Source of the DNA: Arthrobacter sp. SDTb3-6
Lineage (GTDB): Bacteria; Actinomycetota; Actinomycetes; Actinomycetales; Micrococcaceae
NCBI RefSeq assembly: GCF_013376095.1
Contig: NZ_JAAMFN010000002.1
Location: 1-64,000 of the forward strand
DNA length: 64,000 nt
Reading direction: 5' to 3'
The notes below the pieces were generated by a model. That model ran no database searches. It was given only the letters and a program-made list of their open reading frames with translations, and was not told the DNA's origin. Below, piece after piece: positions 49,051-62,569 of this stretch (position 1 is its first letter; every line of letters starts with the position of its first letter). Position numbers and translations under genes: made by a program.

Positions 49051-50472
49051 ATGTTTTCCATGGACGTTAAGGCTTCCGCCCCGACCGGCGGATCGTTGCG
49101 GCGCAGCATCTCGCTGGGGCAGCTCATCTTTTTCGGGCTCGTTTTCATCGGGCCCGCCGCTGCGGTGGGGATCTTCGGCACCCTGGATGCGAAGTCCTCG
49201 GGAGCGGTGGCCACCGTCTATGTGGTCGCCACCCTCGTCATGGCCTTCACGGCCGCCAGCTACATGCGCATGTCGCGGGAAGTGCCGCGGGCCGGTTCGG
49301 TCTTTGCCTACGCGGGGACGGGCATCGGCCCGCGGGCCGGATACGTCTCCGGCTGGATGATCCTGCTCGACTACCTGCTCATCCCCTCCGTGGCCTACAT
49401 GTTTACCGGGATCGCCCTGAACTCACTGTTTCCGGCCGTGCCCATCTGGGCGTTTGTGGCCGTGGCGGTTGTCGCCACCACGGCCCTCAACCTGGCCGGG
49501 GTGACTGTCGCATCCACGGTGATCACCGCCGTCGTGCTCCTGGAAGTGGCGGTGCTTCTGGTGGTGCTGGCCTGCGGCACCTGGGTCCTGTCGGTGCACG
49601 GGCCCACGCGCCCCTGGCTGAGCCCATTCACCGGCGTGGGCGGCTTCTCGGTCACCGCCGTGATGGCTGCCGTGTCCGTTGCCGTCCTTTCCTTCCTGGG
49701 CTTCGATGCGCTGGCCACCTTCGCCGAGGAGGCCAAGGGCAGTGTCCGGCTGGTGGGCAGGGCCACCATGCTGTGCCTGGTCATCGCCGGCGTCCTGTTC
49801 GTCGCACAAAGCTACGTCGGCGCGCTGCTCTCCCCCACCACGCCTGCGCAGCTGGCCGCCCATCCGGGGCTCGAGGGTGCCGCCTACTACACCGCCGTCG
49901 GGAACAGCATCGGCCCCTGGCTGCATTGGCTGCTGGCCCTGTCCAAGGCCGCCGGCGCCGCCTTCGCCGCCATGGTGGGCCAGGGGGCCGGCAGCCGCAT
50001 CATCATGGACATGGCCCGCGAACGCCGTGTTCCGCGCGCGCTGGCGAAAGTATCCGTGCGCACAGGGGTGCCCGTGCGCAGCATCCTGGTCACCGCCGCC
50101 GGGAACATTGTGGTGGCCCTGTGGGCGGCCACCCGCGGCGACGGCCTGGACATCCTCAGCTCGGCAGTGAACGTCGGGGCCCTGACGGCGTTCATCCTGC
50201 TCCATGTGTCGGTGATCGGCTACTTCCTCGTCAAGAAACTGGCCCCCGGGAACTGGTTCCTCCACGGCGCCGTCCCCGCCGTCGGGGCGGTCCTGCTGGT
50301 CCTGGTCCTGGCCTCCGCCACCCCCCTGGCCCTGGAGGTGGGGCTGGGCTGGTTTGTGCTGGGGCTGGTGGTGGCAGCCATCATGTACCGGCGGCGGGCG
50401 GCCTCCGGGCGCGCAGCGTCCGGGCAGGCGGAGTCCGGGCAGGCACCACCCGGGGCGGACGTCCCCTCCTGA
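49051..50472 (+). CDS. APC-family amino acid permease (second)
   Basis: 473 residues, twelve membrane helices. The N-terminal motif is LGQLIFFGLVFIGPAAAVGIFG and the mid-protein motif is VLSFLGFDALATFAEEAKG. The start may be ATG 49051 or 49060; no ribosome site is clear for either. The C-terminal tail is low complexity (repeats of SG(R/Q)A, from about residue 450), probably disordered. It probably imports an amino acid or amine by proton symport. It precedes the FAD oxidase gene by 81 bp, so the permease may supply the oxidase's substrate. Confidence 0.87.
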   Translation: MFSMDVKASAPTGGSLRRSISLGQLIFFGLVFIGPAAAVGIFGTLDAKSSGAVATVYVVATLVMAFTAASYMRMSREVPRAGSVFAYAGTGIGPRAGYVSGWMILLDYLLIPSVAYMFTGIALNSLFPAVPIWAFVAVAVVATTALNLAGVTVASTVITAVVLLEVAVLLVVLACGTWVLSVHGPTRPWLSPFTGVGGFSVTAVMAAVSVAVLSFLGFDALATFAEEAKGSVRLVGRATMLCLVIAGVLFVAQSYVGALLSPTTPAQLAAHPGLEGAAYYTAVGNSIGPWLHWLLALSKAAGAAFAAMVGQGAGSRIIMDMARERRVPRALAKVSVRTGVPVRSILVTAAGNIVVALWAATRGDGLDILSSAVNVGALTAFILLHVSVIGYFLVKKLAPGNWFLHGAVPAVGAVLLVLVLASATPLALEVGLGWFVLGLVVAAIMYRRRAASGRAASGQAESGQAPPGADVPS

Positions 50473-50553
50473 CAGGCTGTGCCGGACGGCCCGGGCGGGC
50501 ACGGCCGGCCGGAAGCCTTGCGGTCCGCGCCCGCATGGGCAAAGGTGGTTTCC

Positions 50554-51924
50554 ATGGCTACCCTCCCAAGCGGCGGCGGCGCCCAGGCCCTGCTGTCCGC
50601 GTGCCGAAACGCCTCGACCGACCCGGATGCACGGGCCCGTGCCAGCACGGACCGGTCCGGTTACGTGCCCGGCAGCGTTCCTGACGGCGTCGTCTACGCG
50701 GAAACGGTGGACGACGTCGTCGAGGCACTGCGGCTGGCCACCCGTTTCCGCGTGCCCATTGTGCCGCGCGGGGCAGGCACCGGCCTGGCCGGCGGGTCCT
50801 CGGCCACGGCGGGGAGCGTTGTGCTCGATGTCAGCCGGATGAACCGGATCCTCTCGATTGACCCGGAAGAGCAGCAGGCCGTGGTCCAGCCGGGCGTGCT
50901 CAATGCCGAGGTGAACGCCGCCACGGCCCGGTACGGGCTTTTCTATGCCCCCGACCCGGCCAGCACGGCCATCTGCTCCATCGGCGGCAACGTGGCCACG
51001 AACGCCGGCGGGATGTGGTGCGCCAAGTACGGGGTGACCCGCGAGTCCGTGCTCTCACTGCAGGTGGTGCTGGCGGACGGGCGGATCCTGAAAACCGGCC
51101 GGAACACCATCAAGGGGGTTAGCGGCTACGACCTGAACGCTCTGCTCATCGGCTCGGAGGGGACCCTCGGCGTGGTGGTTGAGGCCACCCTGCGGCTGCT
51201 CGCCAAGCCGCTGCACACCGCCACCGTGGCGGCTTACTTCGCGGACGCCCAGGCCGCCGCCCGGGCCGCCTCCGCCATCATCGCGGCCCGGATCCAGCCG
51301 GCCATCCTGGAGTTCATCGACGGCGGCACCCTCGCCGCCGTCGATGCGATGATGGGCACTGACCACAGCAGCCGGGGCAACGCCTTTTTGCTCGCCCAGG
51401 TCGACGGCCACGGCGCCCTGCTCGAACAGCAGGTGCTGGTCGAGGCGGTCACCCCGTTCGCGACGTCCGTGGAACAGACCGACGACGACGTCCGGGCCGC
51501 CGATCTGGTCGCCGCCCGGCGCAACGCCATCCCCGCCCTGCAGCAGCTGGGCCGGGTCTCGATCGGGGACATCGGAGTCCCCCGCAAACGCCTGGCCGAG
51601 GCGGTTGCGGGACTGGCCGGCATCGCGGAGCGGACCGGAGTGAAGATCTTCGTGATTGCCCACGCCGCGGACGGCAACCTGCACCCCATGGTGGTGGTGG
51701 GCCCCGACGAATCCATCACCGAGGGCCCGGCCAAGGCCGCCCTGGGCGAGATGTTCCACCTGGCCAGGCGGCTCGGCGGCACCCTGACCGGCGAACACGG
51801 CATCGGCCTGCTCAAACAGGACTGGCTGGAGGAGGAAGTCGGCAGCCTCTCCCTGGAACTGCAGCACAAGATCAAGGCCGCCTTTGACCCGCTGGGCATC
51901 CTGAACCCCGGCAAGGGCATATAG
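50554..51924 (+). CDS. FAD-linked oxidase, GlcD/D-lactate dehydrogenase type
   Basis: 456 residues from ATG 50554 (AAAGGTGG five bases upstream; the frame is open to 50479). PCMH FAD domain (about 40-215): PRGAGTGLAGGSSA, CSIGGNVATNAGG, TIKGVSGYDLNALLIGSEGTLG. The C-terminal cap domain has AHAADGNLHPM and GGTLTGEHGIG, ending LNPGKGI. Members oxidise glycolate, D-lactate or other 2-hydroxy acids, passing electrons to quinone or an iron-sulfur partner. No GlcE/GlcF partner is linked. It follows the amino-acid permease, possibly one transcript. Confidence 0.88.
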   Translation: MATLPSGGGAQALLSACRNASTDPDARARASTDRSGYVPGSVPDGVVYAETVDDVVEALRLATRFRVPIVPRGAGTGLAGGSSATAGSVVLDVSRMNRILSIDPEEQQAVVQPGVLNAEVNAATARYGLFYAPDPASTAICSIGGNVATNAGGMWCAKYGVTRESVLSLQVVLADGRILKTGRNTIKGVSGYDLNALLIGSEGTLGVVVEATLRLLAKPLHTATVAAYFADAQAAARAASAIIAARIQPAILEFIDGGTLAAVDAMMGTDHSSRGNAFLLAQVDGHGALLEQQVLVEAVTPFATSVEQTDDDVRAADLVAARRNAIPALQQLGRVSIGDIGVPRKRLAEAVAGLAGIAERTGVKIFVIAHAADGNLHPMVVVGPDESITEGPAKAALGEMFHLARRLGGTLTGEHGIGLLKQDWLEEEVGSLSLELQHKIKAAFDPLGILNPGKGI

Positions 51925-52041: not shown

Positions 52042-53484
52042 ATGGACTATTTTTCGATCAACTCCCTGCGTGAGACGCACGCGGGATGGTCGCTGCTGCG
52101 CGCCCAAAACGCCCCCCTGGCGCTCACGTTCTTCATGGCCGCCTTCACCGGCCCCAACCAGCGCAACCTGGGCCGGCAGGATCTGGTCGACGTCCTGGAC
52201 GACGTCCTGTTCAGCCTGCGGGACCCGCTGGGAGCGGACCGCTTCCCACGTTCCGCCGCCGAGTACCTCGACGACTGGGCGGAACCGGAAAAGGCCTGGC
52301 TGCGCAAGTTCTACACGGACAACCGCGACGAGCCCGTCTATGACCTCACGCCCGCCACCGAGGATGTGATCCGGTGGGTTGAAGCGTTGCGGGGACGGGA
52401 TTTTGTGCCGACACAGTCGCGCCTCTCCAGCATCTTCAACCTGCTCAAGGCCCTGGTCCACGGTTCCGAAACGGACCCCGCCGCGCGGCTGGCGGAACTC
52501 CAGCGCCAGCGCGATGACATCGACGCCCAGATGGAGCGGATCCGTTCCGGCGAGATCCCCGTCATGAGCGGTCCCGAGGCGGTGGACCACTTCCACCAGC
52601 TCACCACCCAGGCCAAGGACCTCCTGGCCGATTTCCGTGAAGTGGAGGCGAACTTCCGCAAACTGGACCGGAGCCTGCGCGAGCAAATTTCCCTGTGGGA
52701 AGGCAGCCAGGGCGATCTTCTGGAGTCCATCTTTTCCTCGCAGCAGGACATCAGCGGTTCCCTGCAGGGCCGCACCTTCCAGGGATTCTGGGACTACCTG
52801 ATGTCCCCGGGCCTGCGCACCGAACTCCACGAACTCCTGGAACGGGCCACCGGCATCAAGGCCCTCGCCCAACAGGACGGCCTGCACTCGATCGTGTCCA
52901 TGCAGAACGACTGGCTGCCCGCCGTCGAACAAACCCAGGCCACCGTCCGCCAGCTTTCCGCCCAAATCCGCCGCCTGCTGGATGACAAGGTCTTCCTGGA
53001 AAACAAGCGCATCATGGCCTTGATCCGCAACATCGAGTCCAACGCCGTCACGGTCCGGGCCAATCCGCCTTCGGGGCCCTTTGCGGAGCTGTCCGGCCAC
53101 GACGTCCCCGTCGTGCTCCCCTTCGAGCGTCCCCTCTACGAACCGAGCCGGCAGGTGGCCATCCGGGACGGCGTCGACGTTGCCGAGGACCTGGACGTGG
53201 ACGCCAACGCGCTCTTCACCCAATTCCATGTGGACCCGCACCGCCTGGAGTCCAACATCGACCAGGTGCTGGCCGGCGCAGAACAGGCCACGCTGGCGGA
53301 CGTCACTGATGCCTTCCCCCTCAGCCAGGGCCTGGCCGAACTGGTCAGCTACTTCCAACTGGCCACCGAATCCACGTGGGCCACCATCGACTCCGACCGC
53401 TCCCAAACCTTGTCCTGGACCCTGCCGGACGGCAGCCTGCGCGAGGCCACCGTCGACCAAATCATCTTTGTGAGGCCATCATGA
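52042..53484 (+). CDS. jetA: Wadjet system protein JetA (DUF3375, kleisin-like)
   Basis: 480 residues from ATG 52042 (GGAG eight bases upstream; an in-frame start at 51982 has no ribosome site). The sequence runs as DUF3375: 'DYFSINSLRETHAGWSLLRA' at the start, a long helical middle (about 140-260, QRQRDDIDAQMERIRSG), then 'GRTFQGFWDYLMSPG' and a C-terminal winged-helix-like part. In Wadjet complexes JetA is the kleisin that bridges the SMC-like JetC heads and binds JetB. First gene of a four-gene operon whose members overlap by 4 to 11 bases. No regulator is adjacent. Confidence 0.9.
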   Translation: MDYFSINSLRETHAGWSLLRAQNAPLALTFFMAAFTGPNQRNLGRQDLVDVLDDVLFSLRDPLGADRFPRSAAEYLDDWAEPEKAWLRKFYTDNRDEPVYDLTPATEDVIRWVEALRGRDFVPTQSRLSSIFNLLKALVHGSETDPAARLAELQRQRDDIDAQMERIRSGEIPVMSGPEAVDHFHQLTTQAKDLLADFREVEANFRKLDRSLREQISLWEGSQGDLLESIFSSQQDISGSLQGRTFQGFWDYLMSPGLRTELHELLERATGIKALAQQDGLHSIVSMQNDWLPAVEQTQATVRQLSAQIRRLLDDKVFLENKRIMALIRNIESNAVTVRANPPSGPFAELSGHDVPVVLPFERPLYEPSRQVAIRDGVDVAEDLDVDANALFTQFHVDPHRLESNIDQVLAGAEQATLADVTDAFPLSQGLAELVSYFQLATESTWATIDSDRSQTLSWTLPDGSLREATVDQIIFVRPS

Positions 53485-54125
53485 CCACAGTTCCCGCCGA
53501 CGCCGGCATGGATTCCGCAGACGCACCGGACACCGGCACGACGCCTGACGGCCTGCCCCTGGCCGTCACCCGGCTGTTCAAGGGCGTGGTCTACCGCGAC
53601 GCCGACGAAAAACTGTGGCAGCGGCTCATGGAACTCTCCGCCCAGGCCCGGGACTACGTGGCCGTGCTGGGCCTGGAACTGGTCCTCGACGACACCGAGG
53701 GCTACGCCTTCCTGCGCTCCAGCCCCGACGCCGACCCCGAGCTGCCCCGCCTCATCCCCCGCCGCCAGCTGACCTTCAACGTCAGCCTGCTGCTGGCCCT
53801 GCTGCGTGCCCGGCTGGCCGAATTTGACGCGCAAAACAGCGAAACGCGGCTCATCATGACGGCCGAACAGATCGGGGACATGGTCTCCGTCTTCCTGCCC
53901 GAATCCAGCAACGAGGCCCGCATCCAGGACCAGCTGGCCGGCAACATCAAAAAAGTCACCGAGCTGGGCTTCCTGCGCAAACTCCGCGGGCAGGATGCCA
54001 CCTACGAGGTGGCGCGCATCCTCAAGGCCTTTGTGGACGCCCAGTGGCTGGAAGAATTCGACGCCCGCCTTGCCGATTACCGTTCCGCCCTGACCGGGGC
54101 CCAGCCTGAAAGGGCCACCGCATGA
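53481..54125 (+). CDS. jetB: Wadjet system protein JetB (DUF4194, KITE-like)
   Basis: 214 residues; a start ATGA-overlaps the jetA stop. DUF4194 pattern: LAVTRLFKGVVYRDADEKLW, YVAVLGLELVLDDTEGYAFL, then two winged-helix units including RLIMTAEQIGDMVSVFLPES, QDQLAGNIKKVTELGFLRKL and YEVARILKAFVDA. JetB is the small KITE-like subunit (MukE equivalent) that links the kleisin to DNA in the loop-extruding complex. The acidic first 25 residues (DADEAPDTGT-like) look disordered. It overlaps jetC by ATGA. Confidence 0.9.
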   Translation: MTTVPADAGMDSADAPDTGTTPDGLPLAVTRLFKGVVYRDADEKLWQRLMELSAQARDYVAVLGLELVLDDTEGYAFLRSSPDADPELPRLIPRRQLTFNVSLLLALLRARLAEFDAQNSETRLIMTAEQIGDMVSVFLPESSNEARIQDQLAGNIKKVTELGFLRKLRGQDATYEVARILKAFVDAQWLEEFDARLADYRSALTGAQPERATA

Positions 54126-57100
54126 GCACCCAAGCAGGGCTTTTCAGCCTCGACGACCTGACCGAGGACGACGCCGGAACCCGCCCGGGCTTCCGGCTGC
54201 ACCGTTTGGAGCTGCTGAACTGGGGCACCTTTAACAAGAGCGTGCGCACCTTCCGGCTCGACGGAGAGAACAGCCTGCTCACCGGCGACATCGGCTCGGG
54301 CAAGTCCACCGTTGTGGACGCCATCACCACGCTGTTGCTCCCGGCCAACAAGATTGAATACAACAAGGCCGCCGGGGCGCAAAAGAAGGAACGCAGCCTC
54401 ATGTCCTATGTGCGCGGCTTCCACAAAAGCGCCCGCAGCGGCATTGGCGACACCTCCCGCCCGGTTGCCCTCCGCGGCCCGGGCAGCTTCTCCGTGGTGC
54501 TGGGCGTGTTCCACAACGCGGCACTCGAGAAAACCGTCACGCTGGCCATCACACTGTGGGCCACGCAGGAAGCCGGCCAGCCCACGCGCTTCTATTCCAT
54601 CGCCGAGGGCGAACAGTCCATCAAGAGCGGCTTCTCCGACTTTGGCACCGACATGGCCAAGCTCAAGCGGCGGCTGCGCAACGACGGCGTGGCGGTCTTC
54701 GATGTCTTCGAAAAGTATGCCGCGGCGTTCAAGCGCCACTTCGGCATCGGCTCGGCCCAGGCCATGGACCTGTTCCACCGCACGGTGTCCATGAAGCAGG
54801 TGGAAAACATCACCCACTTTGTGCGCACCAACATGCTCGAAGAGGACGATGTTGACACCCGCATCAAGAACCTGCTGCACCACTTTGACGACCTGAAGAA
54901 GGCCCACGACGCCGTGCTGCGGGCCAAGGACCAGATCCGAATGCTGGAGCCCGTCCGCGACAACGCCGCCCGGCACCAGGCCCTGACCACGGACTACAAG
55001 CACGCCCACGTGCAGCGGGAGCAGCTTTCGCCCTGGTTCACCACCAAAAAGCTGGAGCTCAGCGAGGCGCACCTGCAGGAGCTGGAACGGGCCGCCGTCA
55101 GGGTGGCGGCGGAACAAAACGCTCTGACCGCAGAGGTGGGCGGGCTCACCCGGGAGCTGGCGGATCTTCGCGACGACATCCGCAACAGCGGCGGCGGCCG
55201 GATCGCCGCCATCGACGGCGAACTTGCCCGGCTGGCCATCGAGTCCGGTGCCCAGCGCGAACGCTACAAGTCCTACTCCGAGGCGGCGACGGTCCTGGGG
55301 CTGTTTGAGCCGGAAGACCAGGTGGTCTTTGATGCGAACGCGGCCGCCCTGCCCGGGGTGGAAAAGCATCTGGGAGAGGCCAACACTCAGCTGCAGGGGC
55401 AGCGCACCGCACTGGACCGGCTCCGCTCCGAGGCCTCGGAGCAGGCGGGGGACCACAAATCCGAACTGAAGAGCCTGCTGAACAGGCAAAACCTGCTGCC
55501 CGGCTGGCTGGTCGCACTGCGCCAAAAACTGTGCGCCGGCACGGGCATTGCCGAATCCGAGCTGCCGTTTGCCGGCGAACTGCTGCGCGTGCGCGAATCC
55601 GAGGCGGCCTGGGAAGGCGCAGCGGAGCGCACCCTGCACGGCTTCGCGCTGTCCCTGCTGGTCACCGACGTACACTACCCGGCCGTGAGTGACTGGGTGG
55701 ACAGCCACAACCTGCGGGCCCGGCTGGTCTACCTGAAGGTGGGCGCGAACCCCACGCCCCGCCACGCCGCCGCGAACACGCTGGCCGGAAAGATCGGCAT
55801 CAAGCCCGGCACCTCCTTCCGGGAGTTCCTGCTCGACGAACTGGGCCGCCGCTTTGACCACCAGTGCTGCGAAACCATGGCAGACTTCCGCCGCTACCCA
55901 AAGGCCCTGACCATCAACGGCCAGCTCAAGGGCGGCGGCCGCCACGAAAAGGACGACCGCAAGGAACTCACCGACCGCTCCAGCTACGTCCTGGGCTGGG
56001 ACAACCACGACAAAATTGCCCGCCTCCGTTCGGCCCTCGAGGAGGCCGAGGGCCGTCTGCGCACCGCCACGGACGGGCTGGGCCGCATCGACTCCCAACT
56101 GGGCAACCTGGGACGCCAGCAGCGGCTCATCGGCACCGTGACCGCCGTCGCCAGTTTTGCCAGCCTCGACTGGCACGCCACGGCACGGACCATGGCGGAC
56201 CTGGCCCAGGAAAAGACCGCGCTGGAATCCTCCAGCGACATCCTGCGCGAGCTCACCGAACGCGAAACCGCCACCAACACCCGCCTGGCCAAGGCCAACG
56301 ACAAACTCAGCGCCCTGGAGAGGCGCATCGGCTCCCACGAGGCCGAGAGCAAGGCCCTGGCCGAACAGATCGCGGACTGCCGGGACTTGCTGGCGCAGGC
56401 ACCCCTGACGGACGACGCCGGCCTGCTGGCCGGGTTGGGCACGCTGGCCCGGGCGGCACTCGAGTCGGAGGAGTTGACGTACAAGAACACCGCCAAGATT
56501 GAAAGCAAGGTCCGGGAGAAACTGCAGGCCGCCCTCGACGCCCTGCAACTGCGGGCGGGCCGCGCGGCAGAGACAACCATCAGGTTCATGACCGACTTCC
56601 GCAACAAATACCCCGCCGAGAGCACCGAACTGGACGCGACATTGGAAGCCGCCGGGGAGTTCAACACCATCCTGCAGCAGCTGGTCGACAACGATCTCCC
56701 GCGCTTCGCCGCAAAGTTCAAGGAGTCGCTGACCCAAAACACGATCCACGAGATTGTGGCGTTCAACGCGTTCCTGGATTCCCGGCGCCAGGACATCGTC
56801 TCGCGCATCGGCGAAATCAACGAGTCCCTGGCCCGGATTGAATACAACCCGGGAAGGCACATCCAGCTGGAACCGCAGGCCACGTCCGACGCCGAGGTGC
56901 GCGAGTTCGGCAGCGAACTGCGGGCGTGTTCGGAAGGCACCATCGGCGCTGCGGAACAGTATTCGGAGCAAAAGTTCCTGCAGGTGGAGGCCCTCGTGGA
57001 GCGCTTCCGCGGGCGGCCGGGCCTGACGAACCTCGACGAACGCTGGACCGCCAAGGTCACCGACGTGCGCAACTGGTTCACGTTCTCGGCGTCGGAAAAG

Positions 57101-57493
57101 TGGACGGAGACGGGCGAGGAACACGAGCATTTCACCGATTCCGGGGGCAAGTCCGGCGGGCAGAAGGAAAAGCTGGCGTACACCATCCTGGCCGCCGCCC
57201 TGGCGTTCCAGTTCGGCATCGCGGCCGGCCCGGCCAACCAGCGTTCCTTCCGTTTTGTGGTGATCGACGAGGCATTTGGCCGCGGTTCCGACGAGTCCGC
57301 CAAGTACGGGCTGGAACTGTTCAAGCGGCTCAAGCTCCAGCTCCTGATTGTCACGCCGCTGCAAAAGATCCATGTCATTGAACCGTTTGTGGCCAATGTG
57401 GGCTTCGTGGCCAACGAGTCCGGCGATGACTCCCAGCTGCGCAACATGACCATCCATGAATACCGGGCCGAACGGGACAGGCGTGGCAGCTAA
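54122..57493 (+). CDS. jetC: Wadjet system SMC-like ATPase JetC
   Basis: 1123 residues. N-terminal ATPase half: LHRLELLNWGTFNKS and Walker A GDIGSGKST (residues 55-63, Lys61). Long coiled coils (about 240-420 and 590-780) flank a hinge-like centre (about 450-560). The C-terminal half has signature GGKSGGQKEKLAY (SGGQ at 1011-1014), Walker B FRFVVIDEAFGRG (Asp1049, Glu1050) and the switch region LQLLIVTPLQK. JetC dimers bind ATP and extrude loops of circular plasmid DNA, presenting it for cutting by JetD. All motifs are intact. A 1188-codon frame on the opposite strand is a codon-bias shadow. Confidence 0.95.
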   Translation: MSTQAGLFSLDDLTEDDAGTRPGFRLHRLELLNWGTFNKSVRTFRLDGENSLLTGDIGSGKSTVVDAITTLLLPANKIEYNKAAGAQKKERSLMSYVRGFHKSARSGIGDTSRPVALRGPGSFSVVLGVFHNAALEKTVTLAITLWATQEAGQPTRFYSIAEGEQSIKSGFSDFGTDMAKLKRRLRNDGVAVFDVFEKYAAAFKRHFGIGSAQAMDLFHRTVSMKQVENITHFVRTNMLEEDDVDTRIKNLLHHFDDLKKAHDAVLRAKDQIRMLEPVRDNAARHQALTTDYKHAHVQREQLSPWFTTKKLELSEAHLQELERAAVRVAAEQNALTAEVGGLTRELADLRDDIRNSGGGRIAAIDGELARLAIESGAQRERYKSYSEAATVLGLFEPEDQVVFDANAAALPGVEKHLGEANTQLQGQRTALDRLRSEASEQAGDHKSELKSLLNRQNLLPGWLVALRQKLCAGTGIAESELPFAGELLRVRESEAAWEGAAERTLHGFALSLLVTDVHYPAVSDWVDSHNLRARLVYLKVGANPTPRHAAANTLAGKIGIKPGTSFREFLLDELGRRFDHQCCETMADFRRYPKALTINGQLKGGGRHEKDDRKELTDRSSYVLGWDNHDKIARLRSALEEAEGRLRTATDGLGRIDSQLGNLGRQQRLIGTVTAVASFASLDWHATARTMADLAQEKTALESSSDILRELTERETATNTRLAKANDKLSALERRIGSHEAESKALAEQIADCRDLLAQAPLTDDAGLLAGLGTLARAALESEELTYKNTAKIESKVREKLQAALDALQLRAGRAAETTIRFMTDFRNKYPAESTELDATLEAAGEFNTILQQLVDNDLPRFAAKFKESLTQNTIHEIVAFNAFLDSRRQDIVSRIGEINESLARIEYNPGRHIQLEPQATSDAEVREFGSELRACSEGTIGAAEQYSEQKFLQVEALVERFRGRPGLTNLDERWTAKVTDVRNWFTFSASEKWTETGEEHEHFTDSGGKSGGQKEKLAYTILAAALAFQFGIAAGPANQRSFRFVVIDEAFGRGSDESAKYGLELFKRLKLQLLIVTPLQKIHVIEPFVANVGFVANESGDDSQLRNMTIHEYRAERDRRGS

Positions 57494-58646
57494 GCCGCTG
57501 GCCTGGACGTCACCGGCGGAACTGCATGCGGCAGCGCTGCGGTCCTGGAACAGCGGTGAGCTGCTCCGTGAGGCGGCGGCGCCGTCGGGCCTCCACCCGC
57601 GGCGGCGGGCCATCAGGCACCCGAACGCCACGCAGCTGCGCACCCATTACACGGAGGCCGCAGCCTGGGCGTCCGGGTGGGAGCCGGCACCCCGGGGCTG
57701 CACGCTGGAGCACGTTTCCGTCGGTGCCAGCACCATCGGGGCAAACGTGCTGCCGGCGGCCGCAGTGTTTGCCAGCGCGGCCGGTGAGATCGAGTTTCTG
57801 GGCCGGAGCCGCGAGGCGGCACGCCACGCGGAGCTTGCCCGCCGTTTGGCGGAGCTCGACGCCCGGCTGGCGGCATGGGCGCTGCGCCGGCCCCTGGAAC
57901 TGCTCAAGCAGGGCGATGACGCGCTCACTGCCGCGCGCGTGGCCCTCTGGCTGGCCGCCAACCCGAGACCGGGGATCTACCTGCGGCAGTTGTCGCTTCC
58001 GGGCGTGCACACCAAGTTCGTGGAGACGCACCGCCGGCTCATCGACGAGCTGCTGTCCACACTGGAGCCGGGGCGGGTCCTTGGCGGGAAGAATTACGCC
58101 CGGCGGCACGGTTTCCTGGCAGCGCCGGACCGGGTCCGTGTGCGGTTCCTGGATCCCGCCCACGCGCCGGCGCCCGGCATGGCGGACGTCGAGGTCACGG
58201 CCGCCTGCTTCGCTGCGCTGGACCTGGACGTGGACCGGATCATCGCCACCGAGAACCTGGTCAACTTCCTGGCCCTGCCGGATGCGCCGCGGACATTGGC
58301 TGTCTTTGGCGGCGGCTACGGCTTCGAAGGGCTGGGCGACGCCGCCTGGCTGCGCGGCACCGAGGTGCTCTATTGGGGCGACATCGACACCCACGGCTTC
58401 CATATCCTGGACCAGTTGCGCGCCCGCCACCCGCACGTGCGCAGCATCCTGATGGATGAGGAAACGCTGATGGCCCACCGCGCCTTTTGGGGCCGCGAGG
58501 ACACGCCGACACATGCGGCCCTGACGCGCCTGACCGCTGAAGAGTCTGCACTGTACGCGGCCCTGCAGGCCGGCACGTTCGCGCCGCTGTTGCGCCTGGA
58601 ACAGGAACTGCTGCGCTGGGACCATGTGCTGGAGCGCCTGCCCTAG
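57483..58646 (+). CDS. jetD: Wadjet system nuclease JetD (DUF3322 + DUF2220, TOPRIM)
   Basis: About 387 residues from GTG 57483, which has GGGACAGG upstream inside the jetC end; an ATG at 57456 would add 9 residues. N-terminal DUF3322 part (about 1-190) and C-terminal DUF2220/TOPRIM part (about 195-387). Candidate metal ligands are Glu257 in IIATENLVNFL and Asp300/Asp302 in YWGDIDTHGFHIL, the Topo VI-A-like E...DxD arrangement. JetD cleaves plasmid DNA held by the JetABC motor. Last gene of the operon; a short CCGGG-GTG-CCCGG hairpin follows at 58656-58668. Confidence 0.92.
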   Translation: MAAKPLAWTSPAELHAAALRSWNSGELLREAAAPSGLHPRRRAIRHPNATQLRTHYTEAAAWASGWEPAPRGCTLEHVSVGASTIGANVLPAAAVFASAAGEIEFLGRSREAARHAELARRLAELDARLAAWALRRPLELLKQGDDALTAARVALWLAANPRPGIYLRQLSLPGVHTKFVETHRRLIDELLSTLEPGRVLGGKNYARRHGFLAAPDRVRVRFLDPAHAPAPGMADVEVTAACFAALDLDVDRIIATENLVNFLALPDAPRTLAVFGGGYGFEGLGDAAWLRGTEVLYWGDIDTHGFHILDQLRARHPHVRSILMDEETLMAHRAFWGREDTPTHAALTRLTAEESALYAALQAGTFAPLLRLEQELLRWDHVLERLP

Positions 58647-58677: not shown

Positions 58678-59013
58678 TTACCCGGGGTCCCCGGCCGCCG
58701 CGGCAATGGCCTGGCGAAGTGCGGCAAACCTGGCACTTTCCTTCCCGATGCTGGCCACCTCCCGGGGCACATACCCGGCAGCCTCAAAGTCACCGTCCAG
58801 TGCCGCACAGGCCTGCCGGAAGCGCCCAATCGCGGCGTAGAACGCCTGCCGCCGGGGTGACCGTTCCGCCGCGGACTGTTCCGTGGACCCGCAAAAATAA
58901 GAGATGTACTGCTTGGCCTGCATGGGTACGGGCACGTCCTCGCACAGTTCCCGCAGCTCCCCCGCGGCTTCCTCGAGTTCCTCACGGCGTGCTTCCGGGT
59001 CAAGTCCAGTCAT
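58678..59013 (-). CDS. Orphan small protein resembling a C-terminal helical segment of type I restriction HsdR
   Basis: 111 residues from ATG 59013 (GTG 59028 is possible). The sequence reads like the helical segment near the end of HsdR: LEEAAGELRELCEDVPVP, then YISYFCGSTEQSAAERSPRR, FYAAIGRFRQACAAL, FEAAGYVPREVASIGKE, with the HsdR landmarks 'YI.YFCG', 'RR..FY', 'EAGY....' and a final helix 'R..I..A.GD'. There is no helicase or nuclease motif and no flanking HsdR remnant, so it is either a stand-alone domain or the relic of a lost gene. It lies 18 bp after benE on the same strand and converges on jetD. The homology call is from memory of the family. Confidence 0.6.
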   Translation of the reverse strand: MTGLDPEARREELEEAAGELRELCEDVPVPMQAKQYISYFCGSTEQSAAERSPRRQAFYAAIGRFRQACAALDGDFEAAGYVPREVASIGKESARFAALRQAIAAAAGDPG

Positions 59014-59031
59014 GCTTCCATCATGCACCAG

Positions 59032-60357
59032 CTACGGCCCCACGTTCGCCGATGCCGGCTGCACCGGTTCCCGCGCCGGTTCCTGCGCAGCTTGCTGAGC
59101 CGCTTCCCGCGCGGCGGCGGCATTCGCGCGGGCGCGTCCCCGGGCCGCCCCCAGCACCAGGTACACCACCGCTCCGGTCAACACGCCCCAAAACGGTGCC
59201 ACGACGCCAAAGGGCGCAATGCCCGAAGCGGTGACGATCAGGGTGGCAAAGGCGGCCTCGACGGCGGCCGGTCCCTTGCGCTCCGTCTTGAGCATGTCCA
59301 GCATGGACGACTGCAGGGCCCCCAGCAGGGCCACCCCTGCCATGGCCGTGATGAGCTCGCGGGGAACCGCCGCAAACAGGTCAAGGATGGTGGAACTGAA
59401 CAAGCCAAAGCCGATGAAGAACACGCCGCCGGCGGCCCCGGCAACATAACGTTTCGCGGGATCCTCGTGGGCCTCGCGGCCACAACAGATTCCAGCCGTA
59501 ATCGCCGCCAGGTTGATCGCATGGGAACCGAACGGCGCAAAAAGCACACTGGCCACGGAACTTCCGCCGAGCAGCAGCCTGTCATTGGGCTCGTAGCCAC
59601 TGGTCCGCATCATGACCAGGCCCGGCCCGTTCTGGCCGGCCATGGTCACAATGAGCAGGGGAATGGAAATGCCCATGACGGCCTGGATTGAAAACGTGGG
59701 AAGCGTGAACACCGGCTGGGTCAGTGCAAGCGTCAGCTCGGGGCTGTGTGCCTGCCCCACCGCCACGGACAAGAAAACGCCCGCTCCCAGCGCCACCGGC
59801 ACTGCGTACTTCGGGCACAGGCGGCGGGCCACAAAATACGCCGCCACGAGTCCGCCGGCAACCACCGGGGAGGCCAGCACGGCACCGGTGGCATTGAGCA
59901 CGAACGGCAGCAGCACCCCGGCCAGGACCGCGGCCAGGATCGGCCGGGGAACCGCGGCCAGCAGACGGCCAAACAATCCGGTCAGGCTGAGCACCAGTCC
60001 CAGCAGGCCGGCCACAATGTAGGCGCCAACGGCATCGGAAAAGCTGTAGTTTCCCAGCACCGTCAGCAGCAGCGCCGAGCCGGGAACCGACCAGGCCACC
60101 ACGACGGGCTGCCGGGTGAACAGGCTGAGCACCAGGCCCACGATCCCGCTGCCCACCGAGACTGCCCAGACCCATGAAGCGGTCTGTGGCTGGCTCAGGC
60201 CGGCCCTTTGGGCGGCCTGCAGGATGACCAGCATCGGACCGGCATAGGAAACCGCCACCGCGATGAGTCCGGCACAGACGGCACTGAGCGAAAGATCGCC
60301 CAGCAGCCCGGGGGCCCTGCCTCGGACGGCGGCTCCCGCCTTTTTGCGTTCCGGCAC
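59032..60357 (-). CDS. benE: Benzoate/H+ symporter, BenE family
   Basis: About 441 residues from GTG 60357 (AAAGGCGG upstream); a TTG at 60486 lacks a site. Eleven to twelve membrane helices. BenE motifs: SVPGSALLLTVLGNYSFSDA, VPRPILAAVLAGVLLPFVL, TMAGQNGPGLVMMRTSGYEP and LFAPFGSHAINLAAITAGIC, the conserved unwound-helix regions of this nucleobase-symporter-like fold. The C-terminal 40 residues are Ala/Arg-rich and cytoplasmic. It imports benzoate for the dioxygenase encoded divergently. The gap to benA is 302 bp. Confidence 0.9.
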   Translation of the reverse strand: MPERKKAGAAVRGRAPGLLGDLSLSAVCAGLIAVAVSYAGPMLVILQAAQRAGLSQPQTASWVWAVSVGSGIVGLVLSLFTRQPVVVAWSVPGSALLLTVLGNYSFSDAVGAYIVAGLLGLVLSLTGLFGRLLAAVPRPILAAVLAGVLLPFVLNATGAVLASPVVAGGLVAAYFVARRLCPKYAVPVALGAGVFLSVAVGQAHSPELTLALTQPVFTLPTFSIQAVMGISIPLLIVTMAGQNGPGLVMMRTSGYEPNDRLLLGGSSVASVLFAPFGSHAINLAAITAGICCGREAHEDPAKRYVAGAAGGVFFIGFGLFSSTILDLFAAVPRELITAMAGVALLGALQSSMLDMLKTERKGPAAVEAAFATLIVTASGIAPFGVVAPFWGVLTGAVVYLVLGAARGRARANAAAAREAAQQAAQEPAREPVQPASANVGP

Positions 60358-60659
60358 GATGTGGCCGCCTTTCCGATGGTGGGAAACCGGTCGCAGCTGC
60401 GCCCCGGGCGGCGCGTGGCCGGACAGAAGTTGCGGGGCACGGACCGTGTCCGGCCCAACGTTACGGTGCCGGGGAAACACAGACAAATACCAAAAAAGTC
60501 ATGATTCATACCTGAAACACACTATTGAGGAACCCCTGGCCAAGCCTAGGCATATGTCCAGTGTGAGGTGCCCCACATGATGTCAAGGTGGACTCCATGG
60601 TCTTTCCACCCATCGGGTGGACCAGGGCGTCAGCGCCACTACGAAGGATGGAGCATACC
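60358..60659. other. 302-bp divergent benE-benA control region
   Basis: Gene-free apart from unsupported upstream start codons. It holds an AT-rich stretch near 60480-60520, a CRP/GlxR-like 16-mer at 60562-60577 and the ribosome site AAGGATGGAG of benA. No BenR-type regulator gene is in the window. Confidence 0.5.
60562..60577. promoter_or_regulatory. CRP/GlxR-like binding site upstream of benA
   Basis: TGTGA-N6-CCACA differs by one base from the actinobacterial GlxR/CRP consensus TGTGA-N6-TCACA. It lies 83 bp before the benA start. Confidence 0.45.
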
Positions 60660-62021
60660 ATGACTGAAACTTTAGACACCGTCTCGGCCCTGCTGGACGA
60701 CGCACTCGTCGACAGCCCGGAGACCGGCAAATTCCGCGCCAACCGAAGCATCTTCACCGACGAGGAAATCTTCGAGCTTGAGATGAAGCACATTTGGGAA
60801 GGCAACTGGGTGTACCTGGCCCACGAATCCCAGATCCCCAACGTCGGTGACTACCTCACCACCAACATCGGCCGTCAGCCGATTGTCATTTCGCGCAACA
60901 AGGAGGGCGTGCTCAACGCCATCATCAATGCCTGCAGCCACCGCGGGGCGATGCTTTGCCGCCGGAAGACCGACAACCGCACCACCTTCACGTGCCCGTT
61001 CCATGGCTGGACCTTCAACAACTCCGGCAAGCTGCTCAAGGTCAAGGACTCCCGCGGCGCCGGCTACCCCGAGGGGTTCAACAAGGAAGGCTCGCACGAC
61101 CTGACCAAGGTGGCGCGCTTCGAATCCTACCGCGGCTTCCTCTTTGGTTCACTGCGCGAGGACGTCAAGCCCCTGGAAGAACACCTGGGCGAATCCACCA
61201 AGATCATCGACATGATCGTGGACCAGTCCCCGGAAGGCCTTGAAGTCCTGCGTGGTTCCTCCACCTACACCTACGACGGCAACTGGAAGCTCCAGGCTGA
61301 AAACGGCGCCGACGGCTACCACGTCTCGGCCACCCACTGGAACTACGCGGCCACGCAGGCGCGCCGCGCGTCCGGCGAGTCCAGCAACGAGACCAAGACC
61401 ATGGACGCCGGCGGCTGGGACAAGCAGGAAGGCGGCTACTACTCCTTCGAGAACGGCCACCTGCTGCTGTGGACCCAATGGCTGGATCCTGCCAACCGCC
61501 CCCTGGCCGAGAAGCGCGACGAACTGGTTGCAGCCCACGGCGAGGCGAAGGCCGACTGGATGATCGGCATCTCCCGCAACCTCTGCCTCTACCCGAACGT
61601 GTACCTGATGGACCAGTTCTCCTCGCAGATCCGCCAGTTCCGCCCGGTCGCCGTGGACAAGACCGAGGTCACCATCTACTGCATCGCCCCCAAGGGCGAG
61701 TCCGACGAAGCCCGCGCCAACCGCATTCGCCAGTATGAGGACTTCTTCAATGCCTCCGGCATGGCCACCCCGGACGACCTGGAGGAATTCCGCTCCTGCC
61801 AGAAGACCTACATGGCCACCGCCGCCAAGTGGAACGACCTCTCCCGCGGCCAGGCCCACCAGATCACCGGCGCTGACGAGAACGCCAGGAAGATCGGCCT
61901 CGAGCCAATCTCCAGCGGGGCGCGCACCGAGGACGAGGGCCTGTACCCGATCCAGCACGGCTACTGGCTCAAGACCATGCGCAATGCCGTTGCCACCGAA
62001 CAAGCCGCCGCAGCGAACTAG
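60660..62021 (+). CDS. benA: Benzoate 1,2-dioxygenase, large (alpha) subunit
   Basis: 453 residues from ATG 60660 (AAGGATGGAG). Rieske domain (about 45-150) with ligands Cys92/His94 (ACSHRGAML) and Cys112/His115 (TCPFHGW). The catalytic domain has the mononuclear iron ligands His221 and His226 and the bridging Asp218 in [15 protein letters not shown]. With benB it forms the oxygenase that turns benzoate and O2 into cis-1,2-dihydroxybenzoate-1-carboxylate. The benzoate assignment, rather than anthranilate or toluate, is supported by the linked benE and a three-gene oxygenase/reductase set. Toluate activity cannot be excluded. Confidence 0.92.
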
Positions 62022-62038
62022 ACGTAAGGAAGCACACC

Positions 62039-62569
62039 ATGACCGCCATAGCCACCACCGAGTTCCAGGCCAGCACCGGAACGGTGACACTTCAGGACGT
62101 CAAGCAGTTCCTCTACCAGGAGTCCCGTTTCCTGGACGACCGCGACTTCGACCGATGGATCGACTGCTACCACCCCGAGGCCACTTTCTGGATGCCCGCC
62201 TGGGCCGACGACGATGCGCTCACCGAGGACCCCCAGCGGGAGATCTCGCTGATCTACTACGCCAACCGCGGCGGCCTGGAAGACCGCGTTTTCCGCATCA
62301 AGACCGACCGCTCCTCGGCCACCAGCCTGCCCGAGCCCCGCACCGGGCACAACGTGACCAACGTGGAAATCGTTGCCAGTGACGGCGACAGGGTCGATGT
62401 ACGTTTCAACTGGTTCACCCTGTACTACCGCTACCAGAATGTCGACACCTACTTTGGCACCTCGTTCTACACCATCGACTATTCCGGCACCCAGCCGGTG
62501 ATCATGGCCAAGAAGGTTGTGTTGAAAAACGACTTCATCCACCACGTCGTGGACATTTACCACATCTAA
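62039..62569 (+). CDS. benB: Benzoate 1,2-dioxygenase, small (beta) subunit
   Basis: 176 residues with the cystatin/NTF2-like fold of ring-hydroxylating beta subunits: VKQFLYQESRFLDDRDFDRW, CYHPEATFWMPAW, then the anti-parallel strands ending DFIHHVVDIYHI. It has no catalytic residues and stabilises the alpha3-beta3 hexamer. It starts 17 bp after benA with TAAGGAAG as ribosome site. The stop is directly followed by two hairpins before benC. Confidence 0.92.
   Translation: MTAIATTEFQASTGTVTLQDVKQFLYQESRFLDDRDFDRWIDCYHPEATFWMPAWADDDALTEDPQREISLIYYANRGGLEDRVFRIKTDRSSATSLPEPRTGHNVTNVEIVASDGDRVDVRFNWFTLYYRYQNVDTYFGTSFYTIDYSGTQPVIMAKKVVLKNDFIHHVVDIYHI

Follow-up and report, generated by a model that had tools for sequence, protein, structure and literature searches.

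The question raised by a four-gene operon of the soil bacterium Arthrobacter sp. SDTb3-6 is whether it encodes a Wadjet system that restricts plasmids, a condensin that organizes the chromosome, or a copy that is decaying or silent. The operon lies at positions 52042-58646 of the window, by which we mean the whole 64,000-nucleotide stretch that was analysed (contig NZ_JAAMFN010000002.1, positions 1 to 64,000). We are highly confident that it encodes a plasmid-restriction system of the type I Wadjet kind (JetABCD, equivalent to MksFEBG), complete and most likely functional.

As the original prediction had it, four overlapping genes with intact frames follow one another in the order jetA-jetB-jetC-jetD (Table 1). 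The start of jetB is ATG 53481, in an ATGA overlap with the jetA stop codon; the jetC start at 54122 shares the same kind of overlap with the end of jetB, and jetD begins at 57456, 38 bp inside jetC. For jetA we took ATG 52042 as the start. A longer open frame from TTG 51982 also exists, but in L161 and L164, two congeners, the corresponding frame opens where ATG 52042 aligns and spans 480 codons.

The four proteins were compared with PADLOC and Pfam models, using for jetB a frame that starts at 53478 and is one codon longer than that from its ATG. The best PADLOC models were JetA1 (626 bits), JetB1 (302 bits), JetC1 (1407 bits), and JetD1 (430 bits), while JetC2, the only other-numbered Jet model listed, scored 15.6 bits. 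Because the best scores range from 302 to 1407 bits, a chance match is excluded. Pfam agreed with this assignment: JetA matched PF11855 (DUF3375; 428 bits against a cut-off of 28.6), JetB matched PF13835 (DUF4194; 149 bits), JetC matched AAA_29 and SbcC_Walker_B, and JetD matched both JetD_C (173 bits) and DUF3322 (137 bits). A search of the four proteins against NCBIfam gave no model above its cut-off. Among solved structures, JetA chains were matched by sequence with expect values (E) of 4e-23 to 9e-23 and the JetC chain 8dk2 with E 2e-59. The closest solved chain to JetD was MksG 8b7f (E 1.3e-27), followed by JetD 7til and 8q72. These results support the predicted assignment to type I, made earlier from gene order and domains, and the operon appears complete by every sequence criterion testable here. 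The original prediction had also treated profile matches to MksBEFG instead of JetABCD as grounds for refuting it. That contrast is false, since MksBEFG of Corynebacterium glutamicum is itself classed as Wadjet type I (PMC10123090).

The residues expected of the ATPase and the nuclease are in place. JetC carries the Walker A sequence, the SGGQ signature, and the Walker B sequence that had been predicted. In JetD the glutamate and the two aspartates of the TOPRIM site are present, although their original numbering (257, 300, and 302) was nine too low and is corrected here to E266, D309, and D311. All three are invariant in the 76 aligned JetD sequences, including two truncated frames (L056 and L065); the alignment comprised the window copy, 65 of the 66 related loci described below, eight further actinobacterial loci, and two plasmid copies. 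A disrupted TOPRIM site on alignment with solved JetD structures had been named as grounds for refuting the original prediction; the site is undisrupted, and E266 falls where 8q72 aligns.

Motor action, the sensing of DNA size and shape, and cleavage are ascribed to the window operon by analogy with published type I systems. JetA (kleisin), JetB (KITE), and JetC, an ATPase of the structural maintenance of chromosomes (SMC) type, would assemble into a motor dimer that extrudes loops of DNA. When the DNA is a small circle, the two motors would meet after all of it had been extruded, and their meeting would activate the TOPRIM nuclease of JetD, which would cut the circle; linear DNA and the chromosome would escape cutting. 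In the published systems, JetABC is reported to sense small circles by loop extrusion and to activate JetD on completion (PMC10586767, PMC12287153). Some observations weigh against reading the window operon as a working type I Wadjet. The scores of JetD against solved JetD chains were modest (100, 59, and 46 bits), a single-sequence search with JetB found no solved chain at E<=0.001, and promoter-like matches near jetA were at about chance level (one, compared to a shuffle mean of 0.5).

A scan of genome contigs with JetC recovered 66 related loci, chiefly from Arthrobacter, Pseudarthrobacter, Paenarthrobacter, and Sinomonas. By tblastn, JetA, JetB, and JetC were found in all 66, although some of the best segments were partial. 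JetD was found in 65 and missed at L058 alone, where the contig ends inside jetC. Walker A was present in 63 of the 66 JetC sequences (one frame per locus), one of these being without the other two motifs. The window JetC is 86-89% identical to its counterparts in A. silviterrae (L007), A. wenxiniae (L012), and loci L008 and L013, and the ratio of nonsynonymous to synonymous substitution rates (dN/dS) was 0.10-0.14 in the four pairs that they form with the window copy. Window-type jetC is under purifying selection.

Within the genus, 13 of 23 genomes (the strain's own included) carry a JetA of the window type together with an intact JetD, while the operon is absent from the other 10. An ortholog (82% or more) of the flavin adenine dinucleotide (FAD) oxidase upstream of the operon occurs in 7 of the 23. 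Near this gene, the strain's own genome, G022, G009, and G006 carry jetABCD with an adjoining HsdR-like gene, and G021 carries jetABCD behind a PhoX gene. At the same place G014 has only jetD fragments in three frames (L152 5331-5788 / L171 9331-9788), with no jetABC found in its 18-kb stretch, and G012 has no jet gene. The aligned flanks of this empty site are 33-41 bp apart in G012 (L170); the same flanks enclose 7351 bp in G009, 7503 bp in G022, and 7986 bp in G006 (L158, L160, and L161), in each case with jetABCD and the HsdR-like gene, and the right-hand gene in these three is a GntR-type regulator. When L170 was compared with the window by blastn, the alignment stopped at window position 51920, and the right flank of the window differed. 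For the remaining 8 of the 13 window-type loci, no such FAD oxidase was present within the 17.4-kb stretch. Its presence in 13 of 23 genomes, the existence of an empty site, and the FAD-oxidase flank shared by some congeners mark the window operon as accessory, with one site favoured in part of the genus. G014 represents a decayed Wadjet; loss does happen. The empty site of G012 may be either ancestral or a loss.

The original prediction that the operon may reside in the chromosome and not be a recent island was borne out only in part. In its favour, the 64-kb window contains no transfer RNA (tRNA) genes, a Pfam scan of 10 flanking frames found no integrase or transposase, and the window JetC groups with those of close relatives. 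On the other hand, the accessory distribution, the empty site, and the fragments in G014 speak against residence. The window contig, 200 kb long, may or may not be chromosomal; the empty site of G012 is on a 754-kb contig, and the jetABCD sets of G006 and G021 are on 4.4-Mb contigs. Boundary repeats were considered as a sign of mobility and rejected, as the junctions of three congeners share only 8-bp words. A possible argument against this rejection is one 23-nt inverted pair, 83% complementary, that brackets the window operon (51872-51894 and 59239-59261); both arms are inside coding regions, those of the FAD oxidase and BenE.

It could be argued that the window operon encodes a chromosome-organizing condensin of the MksBEF/MukBEF type and not a plasmid defence. 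In Pfam, JetB has a further match to MksE (PF21980), weaker (72 bits) than that to DUF4194, and relatives without JetD exist, one of them in the same genome. We consider this reading very improbable. JetD is present and in frame with its three acidic residues intact, and window-type JetA is regularly accompanied by it. In a sample of 149 Micrococcaceae genomes, 102 full JetA matches split into 38 at >=376 bits and 64 at <=364 bits (the split was chosen after the table was seen, and one 27-bit fragment was dropped). A JetD_C match lay no more than 9 kb away and on the same strand for 36 of the 38 high-scoring copies and for none of the 64 low-scoring ones. The two high-scoring exceptions are G121, with JetD on another contig, and G150, with no JetD. 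Furthermore, absence from 10 of 23 genus genomes would be odd for a core chromosome function, ScpA is found in all 23, and the C. glutamicum homologue is reported to play no part in organizing the chromosome (PMC7083940). Least probable of all is that the operon is decaying or silent, as might be suggested by the JetD fragments left alone near the same FAD-oxidase gene in G014; against this stand four intact overlapping frames, the low jetC dN/dS with the window copy, and the integrity of all motifs tested.

The small HsdR-like gene that converges on jetD matched positions 726-828 of the 1034-position PADLOC model REase_I (E 3e-14), resembling part of the HsdR subunit of type I restriction systems; a Pfam scan of this gene gave no match. 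It stands beside jetD in three congeners (L158, L160, and L161) as copies that are 64-68% identical, with dN/dS of 0.20-0.44 compared to the window copy, and is under purifying selection. No BenE or Rieske matches were found in 12 congeneric jetABCD stretches.

Table 1. Positions of the window operon, its catalytic residues, its surroundings, and the second jetABC locus. Positions are those of the window except for L003, which has its own numbering.
Feature	Position	Strand	Remark
jetA	52042..53484	+	kleisin, DUF3375, 480 amino acids
jetB	53481..54125	+	KITE, DUF4194, 214 amino acids
jetC	54122..57493	+	SMC-like ATPase, 1123 amino acids
jetD	57456..58646	+	DUF3322 and TOPRIM nuclease, 396 amino acids
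JetC Walker A GDIGSGKST	54284..54310	+	residues 55-63
JetC ABC signature SGGQ	57152..57163	+	residues 1011-1014
JetC Walker B VVIDE	57257..57271	+	residues 1046-1050
JetD E266, TOPRIM glutamate	58251..58253	+	aligns with region of changed residue in solved JetD(E248A), 8q72
JetD D309-I-D311, TOPRIM DxD	58380..58388	+	
Amino-acid permease	49051-50472		upstream of operon
FAD oxidase	50479-51924		upstream of operon
Left edge	51920..51924		match to empty-site congener ends near end of FAD-oxidase gene
Small HsdR-like gene	58678..59028	-	convergent to jetD, 116 codons
BenE transporter	59032-60486	-	downstream, followed by Rieske ring-hydroxylating dioxygenase subunit genes (BenE-Rieske stretch 59032-62569)
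Second-locus jetA	L003 4681-6138	-	
Second-locus jetB	L003 3965-4684	-	
Second-locus jetC	L003 666-3968	-	

A search with PF11855 showed that the genome encodes another JetA, on contig C134 (locus L003). Here jetA, jetB, and jetC are co-directional, as in mksFEB, with intact ATPase motifs and neither JetD nor MksG, which is the make-up of MksBEF without MksG. No jetD was found at this locus, where another frame starts 242 bp past jetC, and the genome has no JetD_C match besides the window JetD. We take the frame beyond jetC to be a malic enzyme or malic enzyme-like gene. The second-locus proteins match other type I PADLOC models than those of the window; JetC is 26% and JetA 23% identical to the window proteins, and JetB is unrecognizable by BLAST. 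This second locus can be read as a putative chromosome-type, MksBEF-like condensin.

Several other explanations of the second locus were rejected. It is not a Wadjet broken by a contig end, as another gene directly follows jetC and none of 20 further genus loci, those fetched first, shows JetD. It is not a replacement for Smc-ScpAB, given the presence of ScpA in all 23 genus genomes. Nor is it a pseudogene: ATPase motifs are intact in all 40 fetched JetD-less copies (23 from the genus and 17 from the family; L129, L131, and L132, on another branch, were left out), and dN/dS, calculated for the ten pairings of five sequences, was 0.13-0.20. A RecB-like nuclease/helicase lies within about 2.2 kb of the JetD-less jetABC in 9 of the 23 genus genomes, and it was considered as a stand-in for JetD. 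This was also rejected: all 23 genomes have the gene somewhere, wherever their jetABC lies, which suggests a core gene independent of it. Twelve of the 23 JetD-less jetABC sets (including L073, L075, and L079) have rpsF-ssb-rplI close by on the other strand, and dnaB is also close in 11; two sets are near neither rpsF-ssb-rplI nor the RecB-like gene.

A low-scoring JetA like the second-locus copy was found in all 23 genus genomes, nine of which have no JetD_C match at all. In the family sample, low-scoring copies occur in 64 of the 149 genomes, one copy each, and 42 of these 64 genomes have no JetD match anywhere. Nineteen low-scoring copies were fetched from beyond the genus; 17 of them cluster with those of the genus, while two (G083 and G032) fall on another JetD-less branch outside the main Micrococcaceae clade; the 64 copies need not be a single lineage. 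JetA matches were found in 19 of 298 genomes from the phylum. Among the loci of the phylum, L143 (genome G381) has JetC and no JetD, yet a JetD_C match lies on another contig of that genome.

In a tree of JetC, 20 window-type copies and 26 JetD-less Micrococcaceae copies formed separate groups, each with full support (100) in the Shimodaira-Hasegawa-like approximate likelihood ratio test (SH-aLRT). A third group consists of six JetD-less copies from another family (f7); L142 has JetD though it lies inside a JetD-less group. The presence of JetD required three changes on this tree, as compared to a mean of 22.6 in shuffles. The tree is a quick, unrooted one of 68 sequences, a chosen subset of those fetched, with warnings of long branches and composition, and two of its rows (L027 and L120) were entered with over-long frames. 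The lineages in it are old and separate, and it gives no direction of change. An f7 genome of the same class outside Micrococcaceae (G227) has both kinds, L135 with JetD and L144 without.

In Arthrobacter sp. ERGS1:01 the JetD-less set lies on a 754-kb circular record annotated as a plasmid. We also observed a JetD-less jetABC (L156), with its DUF3375 gene annotated in two pieces, on the circular 220-kb plasmid CP089609.1 of Mycolicibacterium fortuitum.

The window operon adds one ordinary member to type I Wadjet and predicts that this strain and related ones take up small plasmids poorly. Of greater interest is the pairing of the two loci, since a single genome holds a nuclease-armed accessory motor together with a nuclease-free motor that is present in all 23 genus genomes. 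It could be speculated, with about even chances in our judgement, that two Wadjet-group machines divide the labour, the accessory JetABCD cutting plasmids while an old JetD-less JetABC lineage serves Micrococcaceae, from the outset or by later change, as a further chromosome condensin alongside Smc-ScpAB, or else compacts DNA without cutting it. If true, this division of labour would be an actinobacterial counterpart of Pseudomonas aeruginosa MksBEF and would offer a natural test of a Wadjet motor without its nuclease. With this pairing, a possible action of Wadjet-type motors on chromosomes becomes directly testable within one organism.

Related arrangements are already in print. Several members of the Wadjet group are described as lacking MksG/JetD (PMC7617805), PADLOC reports MukFEB cases as Wadjet 'other' (PMC9252829), and Paenarthrobacter lasiusi is reported to have the same pairing of one JetA-JetB-JetC set with one full type I set (PMC11719660). 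A Wadjet type I system has been reported in 42% of actinobacterial genomes (PMC10482375). We found no literature centred on the JetD-less Micrococcaceae lineage, which is weak evidence of absence as the sources were mostly open-access main texts. The second locus is thus of a known kind, in an unusually clean natural pair.

Among the known systems, C. glutamicum MksBEFG is built from the same four families as the window operon, no solved chain matches the window JetD more closely than its MksG (8b7f), and of 14 control genomes C. glutamicum alone gave PF11855 and JetD_C matches. Its complex is reported to reduce plasmid copy number, with the kleisin MksF binding MksG (PMC10123090, PMC7083940). 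Of the two, the C. glutamicum system is the one for which polar localization and effects on plasmid copy number are shown. The solved type I JetABCD systems of Escherichia coli GF4-3 and P. aeruginosa PA14 (strains as given in PMC10586767) match the window JetA, JetC, and JetD by sequence, and the acidic residues of JetD align; compared to these chains, JetA and JetD score modestly and JetB goes unrecognized by single-sequence search. With MksBEF/MukBEF-like complexes that have no MksG, the window operon shares the motor core and differs in having JetD, while the second locus has their three-gene make-up.

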